In this document: piece by piece, positions 4,453 through 25,247 of the stretch
Layout of the letters: each line of letters begins with the position of its first letter
Numbering within the stretch: the first letter of the stretch is position 1
Source: Nostoc sp. NOS(2021)
Lineage (GTDB): Bacteria; Cyanobacteriota; Cyanobacteriia; Cyanobacteriales; Nostocaceae
DNA: 32,532 bases
Assembly (NCBI RefSeq): GCF_017115025.1
Contig: NZ_JABXKM010000113.1
Coordinates: forward strand, 1 to 32,532
Direction: 5' to 3'
Position numbers and translations under genes: made by a program
Notes under the pieces: generated by a model
The model's input: only the letters and a program-made list of their open reading frames with translations
Told to the model about the DNA's origin: nothing
Databases searched by the model: none

Positions 4453-7400
4453 ATGTTTCAAGGTGTTTTAACTATATTGGGATGGAACTGGCTGCCTTTT
4501 GGATTAGCGCCGATAACTTTAGCTCAGGAAGTACTAACTCCAGAAGAAGCATCAGTTCTTTTTTCTGGCCCTAAATTCTTGGTAGCATTGCTGGCTGGGG
4601 TTTCGATGGCATTTGCCTTTCAATTGTTATTCACAAACTTTTCAGTCGCTGTCGGAATTTCATCTTGGGAAATTGACTCAGATTCTGATGATGAAAGTTT
4701 GGGTAGTAAAATTCGTGAAGTTCAAGCTAAAGTTGGTTCTTGGGCATTGATAACCGCTAGCATTGCATTATTTATTGCTTGTTTTCTAGCGGTAAAACTT
4801 AGCTTAATCGAAAGTGCATTTTTAGGAGCAATTATCGGTGTAGTCATTTGGTCTACCTATTTCTCATTGGTAATTTGGTTGGGTTCATCGGCGGTAGGTT
4901 CTTTAATTGGTTCTATCGCTAATACTGTCACTTCTGGTTTTCAAGCTCTGATCGGTACAGCAACTGGTGGCATTGGCGCTAATGCGGCGAAAAAACAGTT
5001 AGTTTCTACTGCTGAAGATATTACAGCCGCAGTCCGGCGGGAATTAACTTCAGGTTTTGATCCTGAAGGTATTAAAAATACCCTCCAAAGTTCATTAGGT
5101 TCTCTGCAATTACCAAAGCTGGATATCAAAGAAATTCGTAATCAATTTGACCAGCTTTTGAAAGATCCAGATTTGGAATCTGTTGCTAACAGCGACCTAT
5201 TGCAGAATATCAACCGCCAAACATTTGTTGATTTAATCAGCAGCCGCACAGATTTATCTAAAGAAGATATCAATCGCATTTCTGACCAATTTCAAGGTGC
5301 TTGGCAACAAGCTTTGAATCGCAAAAATCCCACAGAACAAGTAATTAATTTGCTCAATTCTGCTACTCCCGAAGAACTGAATTCGGAGCAATTAGGTGAA
5401 CGGCTTCAACAACTGGTTACAGTTGGAGGTGGTAATGGCAATGGTGTAATCAAGCAAGCTATTCGATATGGCTTGAGCGCTGCTGCACCAGCAGTTCTGG
5501 ATCGGGTAAATCTTTCCAATATCGATGTGAACAAAATTACAACTCAGTTGCAAAAGCTGAAAGAGAAAGTTCAAGATGTCGATGTCGATCAAATCACAGC
5601 ACAACTCCAAAAAATTAGAGAGCAAGCAACTGAGCAAGTATCTGCCAAATTGCCAATATCACTCAAAAACACGATTAAGGCAGATGTAGAAGAATACATA
5701 TTGAATTCCTTTCCTTGGCACTTTAACCGAATTACGCTAGTAGATGAATTTCCAGAAGTCATCTATGACGTAAATGCAGATCCGACAACTGTGAGACGGG
5801 AGTTGGAAGAACTAAATCAAGAATATTTTACCAACTTGCTGAAGCGGCGGGATGATATTAGTGAAGCCAGGGTGAAAGAAATTGCCGAACAAATGGAAAG
5901 CGATCGCCTGGAAGTTTTAGAAACTGTAAAGCAGGCCCAAACGCAAGAAAAAGGGCAAGATTTCCGCAGCCGCATCGAAAATTATCTACGTTCGACGGGG
6001 AAAGAAGAACTCAATCCTGAAGGTATTCAACGGGACTTTGCCAAGTTGCTGGAAGATCCAGAAGCTGGCTTTGAAGATTTAAGTAGCCGCTTCGGGCAAT
6101 TTGACCGCGACACTTTTGTACAATTGCTTAGTCAGCGTCAAGATATCAGCGAAGAAGAAGCTAATAATATTGTTAGTCAACTCGAAAGCAAACGCGATAA
6201 TCTCTTGAATGGTGCTAGAGAAGTGCAAGAACAAACAAAAGCGAAAGCTGATGAATTGCGCCAAAGAGTTGAAGACTATCTGCGGAATACTAACAAAGAC
6301 GAACTTAATCCCGAAGCAATCAAACGCGAGTTTGGAGTTTTACTAGACGATCCGCAAGCCGGAATTAGCCTTTTGCGATCGCGCTTATCGCAATTCGACC
6401 GCGACACACTAGTACAATTGCTTAGTCAGCGTCAAGATTTGAGCGAAGAACAGGTAAACCAAACTCTCGATCAGCTCGAAGCAGTCCGAGATAATATTTT
6501 GCAAGTACCGCAGCAGGCGAAAGAACAGTACGAAAAAACTACAAAAGCGCTCGCCGAATATCTCCGCAATACCAACTTGGAAGAACTTGATCCAGAAGGA
6601 ATCAAGCGCGATTTGGAAAAATTACTCGATGATCCCAAAGCCGGAGCCTTAGCACTGCGCGATCGCTTGTCAAATGTTGATCGAGAAACCTTGGTTAAAC
6701 TCGTGAGTCAACGTGGAGACTTGAGCCAAGAGCAGGTTAATCAGATCATTGATCGCGCCCAAGATGCGATTGGTGATATTGTGAAAGCGCCACGACGTTT
6801 GGCCAAGCGTACTGCTCAACAAGCTTTAGATTTTGAAGCTAATCTTGAACAATACCTGCGTAATACCAACAAAGAAGAACTCAACCCAGAAGGAATCAAG
6901 CGCGATTTGCAATTGCTGCTGTCTTCTCCCCGCGCTGGAATTGGGAATTTAAGCGATCGCGCCTCGAAATTTGACCGTTCGACAATTGTGGCGCTATTAT
7001 CCCAACGGGAGGATATCTCAGAAGAGGAAGCTAACCGAATTGTGGATCAAATTGAGTCGGTTCGCACCTCCATTGTCGAACAATTCCAGCAGATTCAGCA
7101 GAGGGTGCAATCAGTGCTGGATGGGGTTTTTGCCAAAGTTCGGAACTATCTCAACTCGCTGGATCGTTCGGAACTCAACTATGAAGGGATTAAGCAAGAC
7201 TTTGCGAAAGTGTTCGACGATCCACAAGCTGGATTTGAAGCATTGCGCGATCGCCTCAGTCAATTTGATCGTGACACCCTAGTTGCTGTCATCAGTTCTC
7301 GTGAGGATATTTCTCAGGAGGACGCGAACCGCATTATCAACCAAATAGAAGCTGCGCGGGATGGCGTACTGCAACGAGCCGAACGCATCCAGCAAGAAAC

Positions 7401-7569
7401 CCAAAAACGCCTGAAAGCGATCCAACAGCAAGCTAAAAAGCAAGCCGAAGAAACCAAAAAGACTGTTGCAAATGCTGCCTGGTGGATATTTGGGACAGCT
7501 ATCACTTCCCTATGTGCCAGTGCGATTGGTGGTGCGATCGCTGTGACTGGGATAACTCTACCTGGGTAA
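4453..7569 (+). CDS. Large membrane-anchored repeat protein (1038 aa), function unknown
   Basis: I do not recognise a characterised family. The N-terminal ~180 residues hold three or four hydrophobic segments (about 35-66, 96-115 and 117-156). A long hydrophilic body follows, and a final hydrophobic segment lies at about 1008-1034 (WWIFGTAITSLCASAIGGAIAV), so the body may be tethered at both ends. The body contains five clear repeats of about 95 residues starting near 517, 616, 710, 806 and 905. Each has the pattern ELNPEGIKRDxxxLLxDPxAG, then RLSQFDRDTLVQLLSQR, then DISEEEANRIVxQIE, joined by Gln/Lys/Glu-rich coiled-coil-like linkers. More diverged copies lie near 200-283 and 428-485. The alternating helical signature suggests a rod-like structural or tethering protein; this is inference. 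The gene stands alone and ends in a strong terminator. Confidence 0.75.
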   Translation: MFQGVLTILGWNWLPFGLAPITLAQEVLTPEEASVLFSGPKFLVALLAGVSMAFAFQLLFTNFSVAVGISSWEIDSDSDDESLGSKIREVQAKVGSWALITASIALFIACFLAVKLSLIESAFLGAIIGVVIWSTYFSLVIWLGSSAVGSLIGSIANTVTSGFQALIGTATGGIGANAAKKQLVSTAEDITAAVRRELTSGFDPEGIKNTLQSSLGSLQLPKLDIKEIRNQFDQLLKDPDLESVANSDLLQNINRQTFVDLISSRTDLSKEDINRISDQFQGAWQQALNRKNPTEQVINLLNSATPEELNSEQLGERLQQLVTVGGGNGNGVIKQAIRYGLSAAAPAVLDRVNLSNIDVNKITTQLQKLKEKVQDVDVDQITAQLQKIREQATEQVSAKLPISLKNTIKADVEEYILNSFPWHFNRITLVDEFPEVIYDVNADPTTVRRELEELNQEYFTNLLKRRDDISEARVKEIAEQMESDRLEVLETVKQAQTQEKGQDFRSRIENYLRSTGKEELNPEGIQRDFAKLLEDPEAGFEDLSSRFGQFDRDTFVQLLSQRQDISEEEANNIVSQLESKRDNLLNGAREVQEQTKAKADELRQRVEDYLRNTNKDELNPEAIKREFGVLLDDPQAGISLLRSRLSQFDRDTLVQLLSQRQDLSEEQVNQTLDQLEAVRDNILQVPQQAKEQYEKTTKALAEYLRNTNLEELDPEGIKRDLEKLLDDPKAGALALRDRLSNVDRETLVKLVSQRGDLSQEQVNQIIDRAQDAIGDIVKAPRRLAKRTAQQALDFEANLEQYLRNTNKEELNPEGIKRDLQLLLSSPRAGIGNLSDRASKFDRSTIVALLSQREDISEEEANRIVDQIESVRTSIVEQFQQIQQRVQSVLDGVFAKVRNYLNSLDRSELNYEGIKQDFAKVFDDPQAGFEALRDRLSQFDRDTLVAVISSREDISQEDANRIINQIEAARDGVLQRAERIQQETQKRLKAIQQQAKKQAEETKKTVANAAWWIFGTAITSLCASAIGGAIAVTGITLPG

Positions 7570-15730: not shown

Positions 15731-16108
15731 ATGAGTTCTGAATCTAACGTCAAACTGACGATCGCTCTTTCTAATTCAGATTTAGATGCAGATGAGCAAG
15801 AACGGGAAACACGGAATTTGCTGCGAGAAATCAAAGACTTAGATGTGGAAAGTGCTGAACTTGTAGCAGTTACAGAAATACCCGAAGGAGCCAAGTCTGT
15901 TGGCGGGTTTCTGGTGGGGGTGTTGCAGACAGAGGTGAGCCTTGCCAATTTTAAGAAATTGTTGGGATTTTTGGGCGATCGCTTGGGTAACAAAACCGTT
16001 GAATTAGAAGTTGAGGCTAACGGCAAAAAACTTAAAGTCAAAGCTAGCAGTCAAGAAGAATTAACCGCCGCCATTGAACAAGCACAAAAGTTTGTCGCAG
16101 GTAACTAA
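15731..16108 (+). CDS. EACC1-like small protein, partner of the adjacent caspase
   Basis: The 125-residue cytoplasmic protein has a predicted strand (VKLTIAL), a charged helix (EQERETRNLLREI), two strands around LDVESAELVAV, a Gly-rich turn (PEGAKSVGGFLVG), a helix (SLANFKKLLGFLGDRL), then strands VELEVEANGKKLKVKA and a final helix. This order, including the PxGAKxxG turn, resembles the EACC1 family (effector-associated constant component 1), described by comparative genomics as small proteins encoded next to caspase-like or trypsin-like effectors in bacterial conflict systems. The biochemical role of EACC1 is not established. Only 30 bases separate it from the downstream caspase gene, so co-transcription is likely. 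Family call by eye: fairly likely, not certain. Confidence 0.65.
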   Translation: MSSESNVKLTIALSNSDLDADEQERETRNLLREIKDLDVESAELVAVTEIPEGAKSVGGFLVGVLQTEVSLANFKKLLGFLGDRLGNKTVELEVEANGKKLKVKASSQEELTAAIEQAQKFVAGN

Positions 16109-16138
16109 TAAATTCCAGCAGTAAGGAAGAATAACGAG

Positions 16139-18652
16139 ATGGCGAAAGTAGCGCTGCTAATCGGAGTCAGTGAGTATGAGTCTGGTCTTAGCCCGTTACC
16201 TGCGGCGACAAAAGATGTCGAAGCAATGCAGCGAGTTTTGCTGCATCCAGAAATTGGCGGTTTTGATGACGTCACACTACTGATAAATCCTCAACAACAT
16301 GTAATGCAGGAAGCGATCGAAATCTTGTTTGATGGTCGTCAAAAAGATGATCTCTTACTGCTATTTTTCTCTGGACATGGGATTAAAGATGAGAGTGGTA
16401 AACTTTACTTTGCAGCTCGCAACACCCGCAAAAATGACAAAGGAGTGCTAGTTAAGGCAACAACAGTACCAGCTAACTTTGTGCATGAGGTCATGAGTAA
16501 TAGCCGTTGCAAACGCGAGGTAGTAATTCTCGATTGTTGCTTTAGTGGTGCGTTTGCCGAAGGTCTGTTAGCAAGAGATGATGGTTTTGTAGATGTCAAG
16601 AATCAATTGGGTGGAGAAGGGCGGGCTGTTCTCACTTCTTCCACCTCAACCCAACTTTCCTTTGAAGAGCAAGGGGCAGATACCTCAACTTACACCCGCT
16701 ATATAGTTGAAGGCTTGGAGAATGGTGCAGCAGATCGGGATGAAGATGGTTGGATCTCTGTTGATGAATTACATGATTATGCTGCCAAGAAGGTACAAGA
16801 AGCAGCTCCAGCGATGAAACCAGAGATATATCCTATCAAAGGCGGCTATAAAATCAAACTTGCCAAAGCACCAAGTAATGATCCCAGACTCACATATCTT
16901 CGAGAAGTTGAATATTGGGTAGAGGGTGGTAACGGTGAAATTTCTGTTGCTGGTCGCGCTGCATTGGACGCACTACAAGAGACTTTGAAACTATCATCTG
17001 AAGACGCGGCTGCAATTGAAACTCAGGTTTTAGCACCTATCGAAGACAAAAAGAAAAAATTGCAGCGATATGAGCTAGCGTTCCGCGACGAGATTAAAAA
17101 AGGGTTTCCTCTTAGCGATAAAACCCGCCATAACTTGAAACGTCTTCAGCAAGCGTTAGGACTCAGAGATGAAGATATAGCTTTAATCGAAGCTCCGATA
17201 ATTGCCGAACAGCCACTTATTACACCTCCGGTAGGTGTCAATCCTCCACCTCCCCAAAATAGCAATTTTCTAAACTATGTGATAGCGGGAATCATCGGAG
17301 TAGCTATTGGCGGTACTATAGTATATGTTTTTCGACCTATATCTACACCTCAAATTACAGAAAATGTCTGTGTTCAAGAGCCGTATAGCTTGAACGACAG
17401 AATTAGCTTGGGTGAAAAAATTTTATTAAAACAAGATACAAATCCAGATAAAGAAGCTGGAGTTAAAGCATTTGCTAAAGGTGATTGTCAGGCTGCTATT
17501 GATAAGTTAAATTCATATCGCGCAACTAATCGTACAGATCCAGAAGCATTGATTTACTTGAATAACGCTCAGGCTCGGCAGAAAGGTAATTTTCTCAAAA
17601 TTGCTGTGAGCGTACCTATTGGCAATAATTTGGAATTATCACAAGAGATGCTACGCGGTGTAGCTCAGGCTCAAGATGAACTGAATAAAAATGGTGGCAT
17701 TAATGACAAGCTATTGCAGGTGGTGATTGCTAATGATGATAATGACCCAAATATAGCCTCAAATATTGCCACCCAGTTTGTTAACGATAACAGCATTTTG
17801 GCTATTGTCGGGCCTAACTCTACTAGTGCCTTAATTAATGCTGCCACTGTGTACCTCCAGAAGGGGAACGGGCTAGTGATGATATCTCCCACCAGTTCTG
17901 CTCCACTGCCTCAATACTACAACTATATATTCCGCACTAGTCTCCGTACTAACCTAGTGGCAGAAAAACTGTCTAATTACGCGATCAAGAATGTTCCTAA
18001 TAGCAATATTCTTGTTTGTGCTTATTATTCCACCAGTATTGATCATCAATCGCTCAAAGATGAGTTTGCCAAAGCGATAAGGTCTGTTGGCGGACAGATT
18101 AATCACACAGATTGTGATATTTCTGCCTCCAACTTTGACCCCAATGCAGTGATTTCTCAAGCTATTGCCAGTGGTGCAAATGGCTTGCTATTAACTTTCC
18201 CGATAGACGAAAGGAAGAAAGGTCTAGCGGTGGCACAAGCTAACAAAGGTCGTTTGCCTCTATTTAGCAATCCTGGTCCGTATACGCAAAAAATTCTACA
18301 GGAGGGGAAAGGCGATGTTGACGGCATGGTACTTGCCGTCCCTTGGTATCCTCAAGCATTTACTGGTAATCCTTTTGGGCAGAATGCTCTGAAACTTTGG
18401 GGTGGTACAGTGAATTGGCGAACGGCGACGACTTATGACGCTACTTTAGCGATCATCGCAGGTTTGCGGCAAACCAACAAGCGTAATGAATTGCAGAAGG
18501 TGCTGCACAATCCAAGTTTTTCAGTTGATGGTGCAACGGGAAAGATTCAGTTTTCCCCATCAGGCGATCGCATAAACAATAAAATCTTCTTAGTCAAAGT
18601 TCAACAAAAATCTGGAACTAATGAATATGAGTTTGTAGCGATTCAACCTTAG
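16139..18652 (+). CDS. Transmembrane caspase-like protease fused to a periplasmic ligand-binding domain (837 aa)
   Basis: Domains in order: (1) caspase-like (C14) protease, about 1-240, with catalytic His80 (FFSGHG) and Cys134 (ILDCCFSGAF); (2) an Asp-rich EF-hand-like loop within it at 199-210 (DRDEDGWISVDE), suggesting calcium control; (3) a helical linker of two ~50-residue repeats (250-300 and 308-356, both carrying LQxxLxLxxED...IE); (4) a Pro-rich hinge (360-375); (5) one membrane helix (about 377-398); (6) a TPR-like segment with Cys411 and Cys450 that could form a disulfide; (7) a LivJ-like type I periplasmic binding domain (about 483-830). Basic residues before the helix favour the caspase in the cytoplasm and the sensor outside. 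Caspase-like enzymes of this group usually cleave after Arg/Lys. Ligand and substrates are unknown. It is complete, with both catalytic residues. Confidence 0.85.
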   Translation: MAKVALLIGVSEYESGLSPLPAATKDVEAMQRVLLHPEIGGFDDVTLLINPQQHVMQEAIEILFDGRQKDDLLLLFFSGHGIKDESGKLYFAARNTRKNDKGVLVKATTVPANFVHEVMSNSRCKREVVILDCCFSGAFAEGLLARDDGFVDVKNQLGGEGRAVLTSSTSTQLSFEEQGADTSTYTRYIVEGLENGAADRDEDGWISVDELHDYAAKKVQEAAPAMKPEIYPIKGGYKIKLAKAPSNDPRLTYLREVEYWVEGGNGEISVAGRAALDALQETLKLSSEDAAAIETQVLAPIEDKKKKLQRYELAFRDEIKKGFPLSDKTRHNLKRLQQALGLRDEDIALIEAPIIAEQPLITPPVGVNPPPPQNSNFLNYVIAGIIGVAIGGTIVYVFRPISTPQITENVCVQEPYSLNDRISLGEKILLKQDTNPDKEAGVKAFAKGDCQAAIDKLNSYRATNRTDPEALIYLNNAQARQKGNFLKIAVSVPIGNNLELSQEMLRGVAQAQDELNKNGGINDKLLQVVIANDDNDPNIASNIATQFVNDNSILAIVGPNSTSALINAATVYLQKGNGLVMISPTSSAPLPQYYNYIFRTSLRTNLVAEKLSNYAIKNVPNSNILVCAYYSTSIDHQSLKDEFAKAIRSVGGQINHTDCDISASNFDPNAVISQAIASGANGLLLTFPIDERKKGLAVAQANKGRLPLFSNPGPYTQKILQEGKGDVDGMVLAVPWYPQAFTGNPFGQNALKLWGGTVNWRTATTYDATLAIIAGLRQTNKRNELQKVLHNPSFSVDGATGKIQFSPSGDRINNKIFLVKVQQKSGTNEYEFVAIQP

Positions 18653-21671: not shown

Positions 21672-22394
21672 TCACAAAATATCTGGATTTTCTCCCAACT
21701 CTCTCAATCTAGCTGCTAAACGAGCCGCTTTTGCAACTGCGGTTTGTGCTTGTGCAGCAGCAGCTTCGTCTGGTAACAAAACCAAATTCCCAGCTACATC
21801 ATAAAACCGCAACCATATCGCCGTTTCTCTGTCTATTGTTCCCTCACTCGTTCCCAACCATAAACCTAACTTTTGACACCACAACCAACCACGCTCATTT
21901 GATGTCAAAGATTGATATTGCTGATTGTGATCTAAATGCCACCCTTGCAAAGAAGTCGGATCAAAGGGGTCATAGACAAAATAATCTGAAGTATGAAAAG
22001 TTTGTTCGTAAAGGTCTTTCTTAACAGTCTTATCTATTTTGGCTGTAGATGGTGACATTAATTCTACAATCACATCAGGATAACGACCGTTTTCTTCCCA
22101 CACTACCCAACCTTGACGAGAATTAGTCCCGTCCACATTCAGGACAGCAAAGAAATCGGGGCCACGGAAATCCTGGTTACGTACTTGGGCGCTGCTGTAA
22201 TAAATAAACATATTGCCACCAGTGAAGAAATCATTCCGGTCAATCCAAGCTTGTTGCAATGACCGAATCAGGACATTCATCGCAATACGGTGGCGATTTG
22301 ATTCCAAGGGTTCTCCGTCATCAAAAATTAAATCTGTGGGCGGTGTGGGGTGTTCCCAGTCTACAACGGCTGTTGGGTTGTTTTCGGTAGTCAT
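21672..22394 (-). CDS. Uma2-family (DUF820) putative endonuclease, with C-terminal helix
   Basis: The 240-residue protein carries the Uma2 pattern within a PD-(D/E)xK fold: GPDFF (Asp80), then PDVIVELMSPST (Asp107, Glu111), then K-rich sequence leading to LYEQTF and YFVYDP. These acidic residues and lysine would bind metal at a nuclease-like active site. The C-terminal ~35 residues (EAAAAQAQTAVAKAARLAARLRELGENPDIL) form a coiled-coil-like helix common in cyanobacterial members. Uma2 genes are greatly expanded in filamentous cyanobacteria, and their cellular role is unknown. It lies 36 bases downstream of a second Uma2 gene on the same strand, so the two are probably co-transcribed, but they are distant in sequence and not a recent duplication. 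Confidence 0.85.
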   Translation of the reverse strand: MTTENNPTAVVDWEHPTPPTDLIFDDGEPLESNRHRIAMNVLIRSLQQAWIDRNDFFTGGNMFIYYSSAQVRNQDFRGPDFFAVLNVDGTNSRQGWVVWEENGRYPDVIVELMSPSTAKIDKTVKKDLYEQTFHTSDYFVYDPFDPTSLQGWHLDHNQQYQSLTSNERGWLWCQKLGLWLGTSEGTIDRETAIWLRFYDVAGNLVLLPDEAAAAQAQTAVAKAARLAARLRELGENPDIL

Positions 22395-22430
22395 GAGCGA
22401 TCGCCTTTCTCAGAAAGCCTTAGATTTTTA

Positions 22431-23069
22431 TCATAAATTATTCTTCACCCAATCTCGAAAATTACGCATAGCTTGACTTCTCCCAATTGTTAAACACTGC
22501 TGAACATATTCATTGACTAATTCAACGATTGGGATATCAGGAAAATTAGGACTAGATTTAGATTTTATATATTTTCCTTCTTTTAGCAACAAAATTTCTA
22601 AACCTTGTTGTGTATGTCGCCAGAGTTCAGGAACTCTCAAAATTTCATAATTATCAAATCTAGTGCGAGAAGTAATATCAATTTCGATTGCTAAATCTGG
22701 TGGTGGGTCTATATTTAAATCTATGCGATTTTTCCCAATTACAGCAGCTTGATTTTGAATATAAAAACTGGTATCTGGTTCTAATGCTTGCCGCGATCGC
22801 TCATTTTTAAGTGTTGTGGAACCAAAAGGTTCAAAATCAATTTGGAGTTCGTCTAACAAGATTTTGACTAAATCACCAATAAGTTCTTTATCCTTTTCGT
22901 GTTCTGCTAAGGGAACCAGAATTTCTAACCAACCATCACTATAAGAAATACGTGCAGCACGTTTTTCTCCCATTTCTTCTAAAATATTTTCTAACTGCTG
23001 CCAACTAATATCTTTGAGCAACATTTGTTGACCAGGTTTAACAATAATTTGTTGCAGTTTTAAAAGCAT
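22431..23069 (-). CDS. Uma2-family (DUF820) putative endonuclease (212 aa)
   Basis: This second Uma2 protein has SDGWLEILVPLAEHE near the N-terminus, LEPDTSFYI (Asp99), PPPDLAIEIDITSRT (Asp125, Glu129) and an ELWRHTQQGLEIL strand, as expected for the PD-(D/E)xK-type core. It lacks the long C-terminal coiled coil of its neighbour. Length is normal for the family. It heads a two-gene unit with the 21672-22394 gene. No partner that would identify a defence or mobile role lies beside it; function unknown beyond the predicted nuclease fold. Confidence 0.85.
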   Translation of the reverse strand: MLLKLQQIIVKPGQQMLLKDISWQQLENILEEMGEKRAARISYSDGWLEILVPLAEHEKDKELIGDLVKILLDELQIDFEPFGSTTLKNERSRQALEPDTSFYIQNQAAVIGKNRIDLNIDPPPDLAIEIDITSRTRFDNYEILRVPELWRHTQQGLEILLLKEGKYIKSKSSPNFPDIPIVELVNEYVQQCLTIGRSQAMRNFRDWVKNNL

Positions 23070-23330: not shown

Positions 23331-25247
23331 TTAGTTTTTACTTGTTAAAGGAATACGGATGATAAACTCTGTACCACATCCTGGGGTAGAATCAACTTCA
23401 ATAGTTCCTCCATGTTTGTCTACAACAATTTGATAGGCGTTCGCCATTCCTAATCCGATTCCTTTGCCCACAGGTTTAGTAGTAAACATATGGTCAAATA
23501 CCCGTTGCTTGACATCCTCTGACATCCCAATACCATTATCGGAAATCTGAACGATCGCGTCATGAGTTGATTGGTCAATTTGCGTTTGGAGCTTAATTTG
23601 ATTAGGATTACTTTTAAGATTCTCAGAACTGCGTTTTTGGCTGACTTCTTCCAGTGCATCGATCGCATTCACCAAAACATTCATAAACACCTGATTCAGT
23701 TGCCCTGCGTAGCATTCTACTAGGGGTAAATCACCGTATTTCTTAACGATCTGAATTTCTGGTAGATTGGGCGTGGCTGTGAGGCGACGGTTCAGAATCA
23801 TTAGAGTGTTGTCTAATCCTTCATGAATATCTACAAATTTCATGTCTGCTTCATCGAGGCGCGAGAAATTACGTAGCGACAGCACAATTTCACGAATGCG
23901 CTTGGTTCCCACTTGCATTGATGTCATTAGCTTGGGTAAATCTTCTGCCAGAAACTCAATATCAAGGTCTTGGGCGCGATCGCGAATTTCTGGTGTCGGA
24001 TTTGGGTAGGTTTGTTCATAAAGCTTTAGCAAATCGAGGATGCCTTGGCTATATTCACTGGCATGGTTGAGGTTCGCATGAATAAAATTGGCAGGATTAT
24101 TGATTTCGTGTGCCACTCCAGCAACCAGTTGTCCCAGACTAGACATTTTTTCGGTTTGGATGAGTTGAGCTTGGGTATTTTGCAATTCTTTCAAAGTTTT
24201 GCTGAGTTGCTGCGCCTGCTGGCTGGAAATAAAGGCGCGATCGCGAATCTGTTCATATAGTTGCATCTGTCGCCATGCACCGATCAACCCAACCATCAAC
24301 AATCCTCCCAAAACCGTAGCCAACAGGTTCAACGCCTGCAATGGCGATTCGATATTTTCTTGTGGCACAATCAACGCTACCGACCAATTTGCTTCTCTGA
24401 GAGGAGTGTAAGCAACATAACTCCACTTACCATCCAGTTGAGCCAATTCAATGTTTGTGCGTTTAGCCACCATTTGTTGGGTAATTTCAACTAACCTGGG
24501 ATTGGGGGAGTTGAGGAAACTCTGGGCGACTTTTTCGCGTGTACCAATTAGCTGCGTGTTGGGATGGGCAATGGGAATTCCTTGAGAATTCAGCGCAAAG
24601 GCATAGCTGCCCTTGCCTTGATGTAAATTGCTGATCACCTCAACTACCCGCTTAATCGGAATACCTCCCATTAACACACCTGCTGGCTTTGTGCCTGTTT
24701 CGGCAGGAATCGGCGAACTAATTTGAATCTGTAACTGTTTGTTTGTGCGTCCAATAATTGGATCGGCAGCTATCGTTTCACCCGCCATACTCCGCTGAAA
24801 AAATTCTCGATCTTTAGCATTGAGATGACTCCCCTGAGTATTAATTGCTGTACCATCTGGTGTGACCAACCCGATGAGCAAAAACGTTTGCAGGCGTGTC
24901 ACCTCAGATTGTAAGTAAGGTTCCATCACAGACCAATCTACCGATCGCACCGCAAGAGAATTTGCCAAAGTCTTAATTTCTGTCTTCCGAATGGCTAACC
25001 AGTTATCAATATCCTCCTGACCTTGGTGTGTTTTTAACAGTGCTTGCTCCTTGAGACTATCGAGCAACAACCCCTTAACAATGTTGTAACTAGTGATGGC
25101 GGTGGCACTAATGCTAATAGACAGAATCACCACAATTGATAACAACAGTAGATTTCGCGATCGCCATTTCAATGAGTAGTAATTTTTGGCGCTTGGGGCA
25201 TACTGTCGGGGGTTGATTTTCAACCAGCCTTTGCGTAATTTAAGCAT
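23331..25247 (-). CDS. Membrane sensor histidine kinase with extracytoplasmic Cache domain (638 aa)
   Basis: A first membrane helix (about 32-56) and a second (about 304-324) enclose a periplasmic Cache sensor (about 57-303; LIGLVTPDGTAINTQG, GVLMGGIPIKRV, YAFALNSQGIPIAHPN). There is no HAMP domain; a coiled-coil region (about 330-365) leads directly to the kinase. The phospho-acceptor is His380 in LVAGVAHEINNPANF. The ATPase carries an N-box around 519-531 (NQVFMNVLVNAIDA), DNGIGM (570-575) and GKGIGLGMA (594-602). It should sense a small extracellular ligand and pass phosphate to a response regulator, none of which is encoded nearby. It lies 53 bases after the 1970-residue kinase gene on the same strand, and its kinase core is closely related to that protein's C-terminus. 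Confidence 0.9.
   Translation of the reverse strand: MLKLRKGWLKINPRQYAPSAKNYYSLKWRSRNLLLLSIVVILSISISATAITSYNIVKGLLLDSLKEQALLKTHQGQEDIDNWLAIRKTEIKTLANSLAVRSVDWSVMEPYLQSEVTRLQTFLLIGLVTPDGTAINTQGSHLNAKDREFFQRSMAGETIAADPIIGRTNKQLQIQISSPIPAETGTKPAGVLMGGIPIKRVVEVISNLHQGKGSYAFALNSQGIPIAHPNTQLIGTREKVAQSFLNSPNPRLVEITQQMVAKRTNIELAQLDGKWSYVAYTPLREANWSVALIVPQENIESPLQALNLLATVLGGLLMVGLIGAWRQMQLYEQIRDRAFISSQQAQQLSKTLKELQNTQAQLIQTEKMSSLGQLVAGVAHEINNPANFIHANLNHASEYSQGILDLLKLYEQTYPNPTPEIRDRAQDLDIEFLAEDLPKLMTSMQVGTKRIREIVLSLRNFSRLDEADMKFVDIHEGLDNTLMILNRRLTATPNLPEIQIVKKYGDLPLVECYAGQLNQVFMNVLVNAIDALEEVSQKRSSENLKSNPNQIKLQTQIDQSTHDAIVQISDNGIGMSEDVKQRVFDHMFTTKPVGKGIGLGMANAYQIVVDKHGGTIEVDSTPGCGTEFIIRIPLTSKN

Follow-up and report, generated by a model that had tools for sequence, protein, structure and literature searches.

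A two-gene unit of Nostoc sp. NOS(2021) joins a remote EACC1 homologue to a predicted transmembrane receptor-caspase

How might a caspase-type protease of a cyanobacterium be governed by a signal from outside the cell, and which end of such a protein is the sensor and which the output? This question is raised by two adjacent genes on contig NZ_JABXKM010000113.1 of Nostoc sp. NOS(2021) (assembly GCF_017115025.1), of which a stretch of 32,532 nucleotides, here called the window, was analyzed as a whole. An initial annotation, made from the letters of the DNA alone, had described a caspase, a helical module, a single membrane helix and a LivJ-type domain in one chain of 837 residues, with a gene for a protein of 125 residues located 30 bases upstream, and this arrangement was confirmed (Table 1). 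The two-gene unit is real and common. With a probability that we put at slightly below 60%, it is a membrane-anchored, ligand-triggered protease switch of the EACC1-associated caspase type. In such a switch, a small molecule bound outside would cause the binding domain to close, and the TPR-like linker and the single transmembrane (TM) helix would relay the change, probably via altered pairing of chains and hence dimer-based activation, to the helical module and the caspase inside. The caspase would then cut after arginine or lysine, both in itself, with R146 as a candidate site, and in other targets, and the outcome might be linked to defence or cell death. The 125-residue protein would be a soluble partner in the cytoplasm that goes with the caspase core and not with the sensor, and it would either keep the protease inactive or aid its assembly.

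The caspase domain scored 181.1 bits against NF047832 (the 'EACC1-associated type'), exceeding the curated cut-off of 140 bits, and in the PDB its profile matched MALT1 (best E 8.8e-9) and metacaspases (best E 3e-7), proteins for which we know of no EF-type loop or EACC1 partner and which, to our knowledge, are not one-chain ligand-binding receptors. Both the caspase and the binding domain were present in 115 of the best 120 of 2263 homologue matches, and from these 120 the 89 rows of fused homologues used for conservation were chosen. His80, Asp132 and Cys134 are invariant in all 89, so that the His-Cys dyad is intact, and across 22 caspase domains, including actinobacterial ones, Cys134 is kept and Cys133 is variable. 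The position of R146, a candidate autocleavage site in a flexible loop of the caspase, is occupied by K or R in 77 rows. The EF-hand-like Asp loop named in the initial annotation held up in its conservation, as residues 199-210 fit the EF-hand pattern with D199 and E210 invariant, D or N at 203 and G204 in 87 of 89, and the same pattern occurs in four aligned actinobacterial caspases (L017-L020). In Pfam searches the loop in the window stayed below the cut-off (EF-hand_6, 12.6 bits vs 25); EF-hand_1 was found at E <= 0.01 in 10 of 50 EACC1-linked caspases. The initial annotation had also suggested a calcium-dependent protease. The loop may bind calcium, but in the passage of PMC7475262 on MaOC1, this characterized Microcystis orthocaspase is reported to be calcium-independent.

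A membrane span had been predicted for the region of residues 377-398, and residues 380-398 proved TM-like (KD19 at least 1.6) in 89 of 89 homologues. The cysteines are consistent with the compartments this implies. Besides Cys133 and Cys134, the only cysteines kept in at least 70% of the rows are Cys411 (88/89), Cys450 (81/89), Cys627 and Cys659, all of them C-terminal to the TM helix and arranged as two pairs. Positions 627 and 659 change together: 77 rows have C-C, 11 have F-F and one has F-gap, and no row is mixed. The number of cysteines in residues 409-837 was four (72 rows) or two (11 rows) in 83 of 89. This pattern, read from the alignment, fits disulphides formed in an oxidising compartment, i.e. 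an ectodomain lying outside.

The C-terminal domain passed both the fold and the profile test for a type I periplasmic binding protein (PBP; Peripla_BP_6), as had been claimed. Loops of its lobe-1 pocket are conserved (S or T at 562 in 88 of 89, T585 in 87 of 89), and the window protein departs from its homologues at 559 (P vs H in 76/89) and at 587 (S vs F or Y in 72/89). E226 of LivJ is presumably the acid that anchors the amino group of the ligand in LivJ-type pockets. In the equivalent stretch 711-714, where the alignment is weak, the window protein has no acid and the 89 rows have few, mainly in column 712 (D in 11, E in one). Different members may bind different compounds, not necessarily amino acids.

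Evidence on the direction of signaling comes from reuse of the ectodomain. In the same genome, the arrangement of TM helix, TPR-like linker and PBP forms one part of an AAA_35 protein (895 residues; L108:94-2781) and also stands alone behind a TM helix (466 residues; L107:1486-2886), both with weak TPR matches in the linker, and ectodomain matches were found in 36 of 40 genomes of the host's taxonomic family. Twenty frames of more than 700 residues were chosen by hand, passing over known caspase fusions and many others, and a tally of their partners by family gave Pkinase 7, AAA_35 5, CHAT 3 and Peptidase_C14 1. The kinase, CHAT and AAA_35 fusions differ from the Nostoc unit in their cytoplasmic output and have the same ectodomain. 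As the ectodomain serves kinases as input, it is therefore most likely the input for the caspase too, and its reuse favours the PBP as predicted sensor and the caspase as output, which supports the polarity originally put forward, with the sensor outside and the protease inside. A broader proposal, which we hold tentatively and at less than even odds, is that one interchangeable receptor (TM helix, disulphide-stapled TPR-like linker and PBP) may be shared by kinases, NTPases, CHAT proteases and caspases in Nostoc-type cyanobacteria, that its caspase version, with a soluble EACC1-type adaptor as safety catch, might be a one-chain ligand-gated death or defence receptor, and that the variable C-terminal parts of EACC1 systems might be sensors and the caspase their output. 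As a separate observation, frames of about 1240 residues at L114 and L116 have two binding-domain matches each, apparently in tandem, and at L116 two Peripla_BP_6 stretches are joined to a CHAT domain; both seem to be double-sensor receptors.

The 125-residue protein had been called EACC1-like, and the homology stood, although the protein fits neither the Pfam model of EACC1 nor its TM definition. It has 893 homologues at E <= 0.001, and among the best 120 of these the named ones are mostly 'hypothetical protein' and a few 'sugar ABC transporter permease'. The EACC1 model PF19953 (gathering cut-off 23.6 bits) gave no match to the protein up to E 10, and a search of the same genome with it gave nothing at the place of the gene up to E 1; its EACC1 homology escapes both Pfam and NCBIfam. 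PF19953 is matched by genes directly 5' of caspases, above the cut-off on a Nonomuraea plasmid (29.5 bits) and below it in Caballeronia (23.5), in Streptomyces (16.7) and in a fused Nonomuraea protein (16.1). A profile of the cyanobacterial small proteins matched the PF19953-bearing Nonomuraea EACC1 at 4e-9 and the fused Nonomuraea protein at 7e-4, with no match at 1e-3 to the neighbours in Streptomyces (L019) or Caballeronia (L023). When 57 cyanobacterial sequences were aligned with hhalign against 44 actinobacterial ones (the PF19953-bearing EACC1), the probability was 97.4% (E 9.7e-12, 97 columns), compared with at most 1.5% for 30 column shuffles and 0.2-0.5% for reversed controls.

In the passages of Kaur et al. 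2020 (PMC7159879) that define EACC1, the protein is characterized by a conserved TM helix, one per chain, on which small residues form a patch. Neither a hydropathy scan nor the predicted model of the 125-residue protein revealed this helix. None of the 57 cyanobacterial sequences had a segment with KD19 at least 1.6, nor did any of the 63 in a larger alignment (A3), compared with 43 of 44 actinobacterial ones. On a Hessa-type scale, a sum below zero was obtained for 0 of 57 and for only 2 of 44, respectively (medians 9.3 vs 1.2), and the TM segment of actinobacterial EACC1 is therefore itself borderline. The predicted fold is alpha/beta (E-H-E-E-H-E-E-H; pLDDT 81.6), with a strand (60-70) and a helix (71-85) at the place of the EACC1 TM segment. 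Judged by profile comparison, the 125-residue protein is a remote EACC1 homologue by common descent; from this match together with the missing TM-like segment it is therefore assigned to a branch of EACC1 relatives without a TM helix and not to EACC1 in the published sense.

Recurrence of the small gene beside caspase genes in other genomes had also been predicted, and was found. In the same genome only two of the seven NF047832 matches exceed the cut-off, the other five being weaker, and immediately 5' of each of these two lies one of the genome's two small genes. Among 118 genomes of the host's taxonomic family, the small gene occurs in 79, an NF047832 match in 117 and one above the cut-off in 73; across the phylum the small gene was found in 41 of 386 genomes. 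A listed caspase match lay 3' on the same strand within 1 kb for 99 of 140 small-gene matches and within 100 bp for 93, and 94 of 123 near-full-length small genes adjoined one, distances being taken from match to match among the best 150 caspase rows, with two of the matches representing one degraded gene. The helical module is common to most of the EACC1-linked cyanobacterial caspases fetched (custom profile 'hel').

Several loci show the small gene in other settings. In Nonomuraea gerenzanensis (L018:2102-4471) EACC1 and caspase are fused in a natural single chain of 789 residues, which may be read as a natural hint of physical partnership. At L027:3181-3743, and in protein P0230, an EACC1-like gene directly precedes a piece of the binding domain, as decayed copies of the unit. 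At L028:1057-3869 an EACC1-like gene is followed by an iSTAND gene (PF19995), a MoxR-type AAA gene and an apparent vWA gene, which looks like a MoxR-vWA ternary conflict system with EACC1 attached. L029 is a similar Nostocaceae locus, in which only the EACC1-like gene was read, and at L042:148-1890 an EAD1-trypsin gene (PF19955 and Trypsin_2) takes the place of the caspase after the EACC1-like gene.

EACC1 and caspase stay constant while the C-terminal domain varies, as is characteristic of the EACC1 two-gene conflict system. A scan of 50 EACC1-linked caspases, taken from 51 frames of at least 380 residues in the fetched loci (one frame at a contig end and the window were omitted, and three PBP loci were added by hand), gave FGE-sulfatase 16, GUN4 12, Peripla_BP_6 8, TPR 4 and WD40 3 as C-terminal domains. 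Among 95 pairs of systems whose EACC1 proteins are at least 70% identical, the tails had no BLAST match in 34, a figure that becomes 19 of 80 if two systems whose tails are shorter than 85 residues are dropped and that stems from few swaps, those of L057/L060 and of L094. The small proteins of L057/L060 are 82% and 79% identical to that of the window, and in these loci a TM helix and TPR repeats replace the PBP. Closely similar EACC1 proteins with unrelated tails suggest that the small partner goes with the caspase core and not with the sensor.

A number of results weigh against the ligand-triggered switch. Structure prediction with AlphaFold2, which the initial annotation had called for in general terms, placed the helices of caspase, helical module and linker but gave a pTM of only 0.55 for the 837-residue protein, with low confidence for residues 361-407 and no coupling geometry visible. 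The positive-inside rule was undecided, as the 15 residues before the TM helix contain 190 K+R in 89 sequences and those after it 153. The switch between C-C and F-F may be a single event in one lineage, since the F-F rows are counted with shared ancestry. Unlike 82 of 89 homologues, the window protein has no K or R from residue 358 to the TM helix and therefore offers no cleavage site there. Finally, 29 of the 123 near-full-length small genes do not adjoin a listed caspase; counted by hand, these 29 comprise 14 followed by a caspase frame that is intact, weaker or fragmented, one with a caspase on the other strand, and 14 for which the stretch read contains no caspase, including L028, L042 and one gene cut by a contig end.

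The alternative that survives best, though we consider it unlikely, is a nutrient or solute sensor whose protease output tunes metabolism or transport by cleaving a regulator or transporter, without killing. The closest folds of the binding domain, amino-acid binding proteins of ABC importers, agree with such a role, as does the placement of the unit between ilvD on one side and, past a gene for 150 residues that matches no family, a porin gene of the iron-uptake type on the other. However, no ABC transporter parts were found among those immediate neighbours that were tested, cyanobacterial EACC1-like genes also adjoin iSTAND-MoxR and EAD1-trypsin genes, and the core family is described, in the relevant passages of PMC7159879, as a conflict system over-represented in multicellular bacteria.

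Less probable still, and quite doubtful for this unit, is the opposite polarity, which is the model proposed for EACC1 systems generally in the passages of Kaur et al. 2020 (PMC7159879) on this subject. There EACC1 is proposed as a membrane-embedded sensor that activates the caspase, and the variable C-terminal domain, here the PBP, would be an effector deployed by autoproteolysis. Variation of the C-terminal domains beside a constant EACC1 and caspase is what this model would lead one to expect. Nevertheless, the cyanobacterial branch has no TM-like segment, and a role of EACC1 as membrane sensor therefore cannot be general; the PBP is a ligand-binding fold and, by prediction, on the opposite side of the membrane to the protease; on kinases and AAA_35 domains the same ectodomain is most simply input; and the chain has no K or R between residue 358 and the TM helix. 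For deciding whether the variable domain of EACC1 systems is effector or sensor, this unit would be the easiest member to test, as its ectodomain is shared with kinases and ligand can be added outside. A third possibility, which we regard as very improbable, is that the PBP and TM helix do no more than hold the caspase in position, at the membrane or septal junctions, and that what activates it is calcium acting on the EF-type loop, or else its EACC1-like partner. If they were just an anchor, there would be no need to keep an entire binding domain whose lobe-1 pocket loops are conserved. The EF-type loop, although strongly conserved and present in the actinobacterial caspases L017-L020 that have no match to the PBP profile, is lost in the Caballeronia caspase (L023).

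Neither the layout nor the proposed mechanism is new, since both are in print (PMC7159879, PMC7475262). The 'System 4' section of PMC7159879 describes an EACC1-caspase two-gene conflict system, including a variant with a TM helix and an outside PBP, and names actinobacteria and sporadic proteobacteria, not cyanobacteria. The Nostoc unit resembles it in having a small 5' gene homologous to EACC1 and a 3' protein with an N-terminal caspase and variable C-terminal domains, and differs in that its small protein is without a TM-like segment and undetected by PF19953, and in the polarity argued here, the reverse of the published model. The same kind of architecture is found in cyanobacterial orthocaspases: Peripla_BP_6 is given 8 times among 473 in Table 1 of PMC8283722, a caspase with ANF_receptor is noted in PMC3501461, MaOC6 is described as a likely TM protein with the receptor domain outside (PMC5756287), and ligand-induced autocatalysis leading to cell death is proposed in the text and the legend of Fig. 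6 of PMC7475262. The passages of these four papers on such proteins do not mention a 5' partner gene, a cysteine pattern or a shared ectodomain. A sensor role has been proposed, in the corresponding part of PMC10907252, for other C-terminal domains of lectin type in conflict systems of multicellular bacteria. The present analysis adds the remote EACC1 homology without a TM helix, the recurrence of the unit, the cysteine pairs and the ectodomain shared with kinases and other outputs.

Table 1. Parts of the two-gene unit, in coordinates of the window
Feature	Position	Strand	Evidence
EACC1-like protein of 125 residues (branch without TM segment), 5' gene of the unit	15731..16108	+	open reading frame, recurrence 5' of caspases, profile-profile match, predicted fold
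Receptor-caspase of 837 residues (caspase, helical module, TM helix, TPR-like linker, type I PBP)	16139..18652	+	open reading frame, domain searches, predicted structure
Caspase (Peptidase_C14) domain, residues 3-224, NF047832 type	16145..16810	+	domain searches
His80, catalytic dyad	16376..16378	+	invariant 89/89
Cys134, catalytic dyad (DCC motif)	16538..16540	+	invariant 89/89; also kept across 22 caspase domains, some of them actinobacterial
EF-hand-type loop (residues 199-210), flanked by helices 184-195 and 208-222	16733..16768	+	conservation, predicted structure
Helical module, residues 249-356, five helices	16883..17206	+	predicted structure, custom profile 'hel'
Single TM helix, residues 380-398	17276..17332	+	KD19 2.15
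TPR-like helical linker with Cys411/Cys450, residues 408-482, predicted outside the membrane	17360..17584	+	predicted helices 436-446, 450-463, 468-482
Type I periplasmic binding domain (residues 484-837), containing the co-varying Cys627/Cys659 pair	17588..18649	+	profile and fold matches

Elsewhere in the window, a protein of 1038 residues (4453-7569, + strand) gave weak matches only, to unrelated families (HU-type DNA-binding, apolipoprotein, TerB, Csn2). Positions 23331-25247 (- strand) encode a sensor kinase of 638 residues with dCache_1 and HATPase_c, and at 21672-23069 (- strand) there are two adjacent genes for Uma2-type putative endonucleases, the second of which matches PADLOC PDC-S17 at 1e-38.

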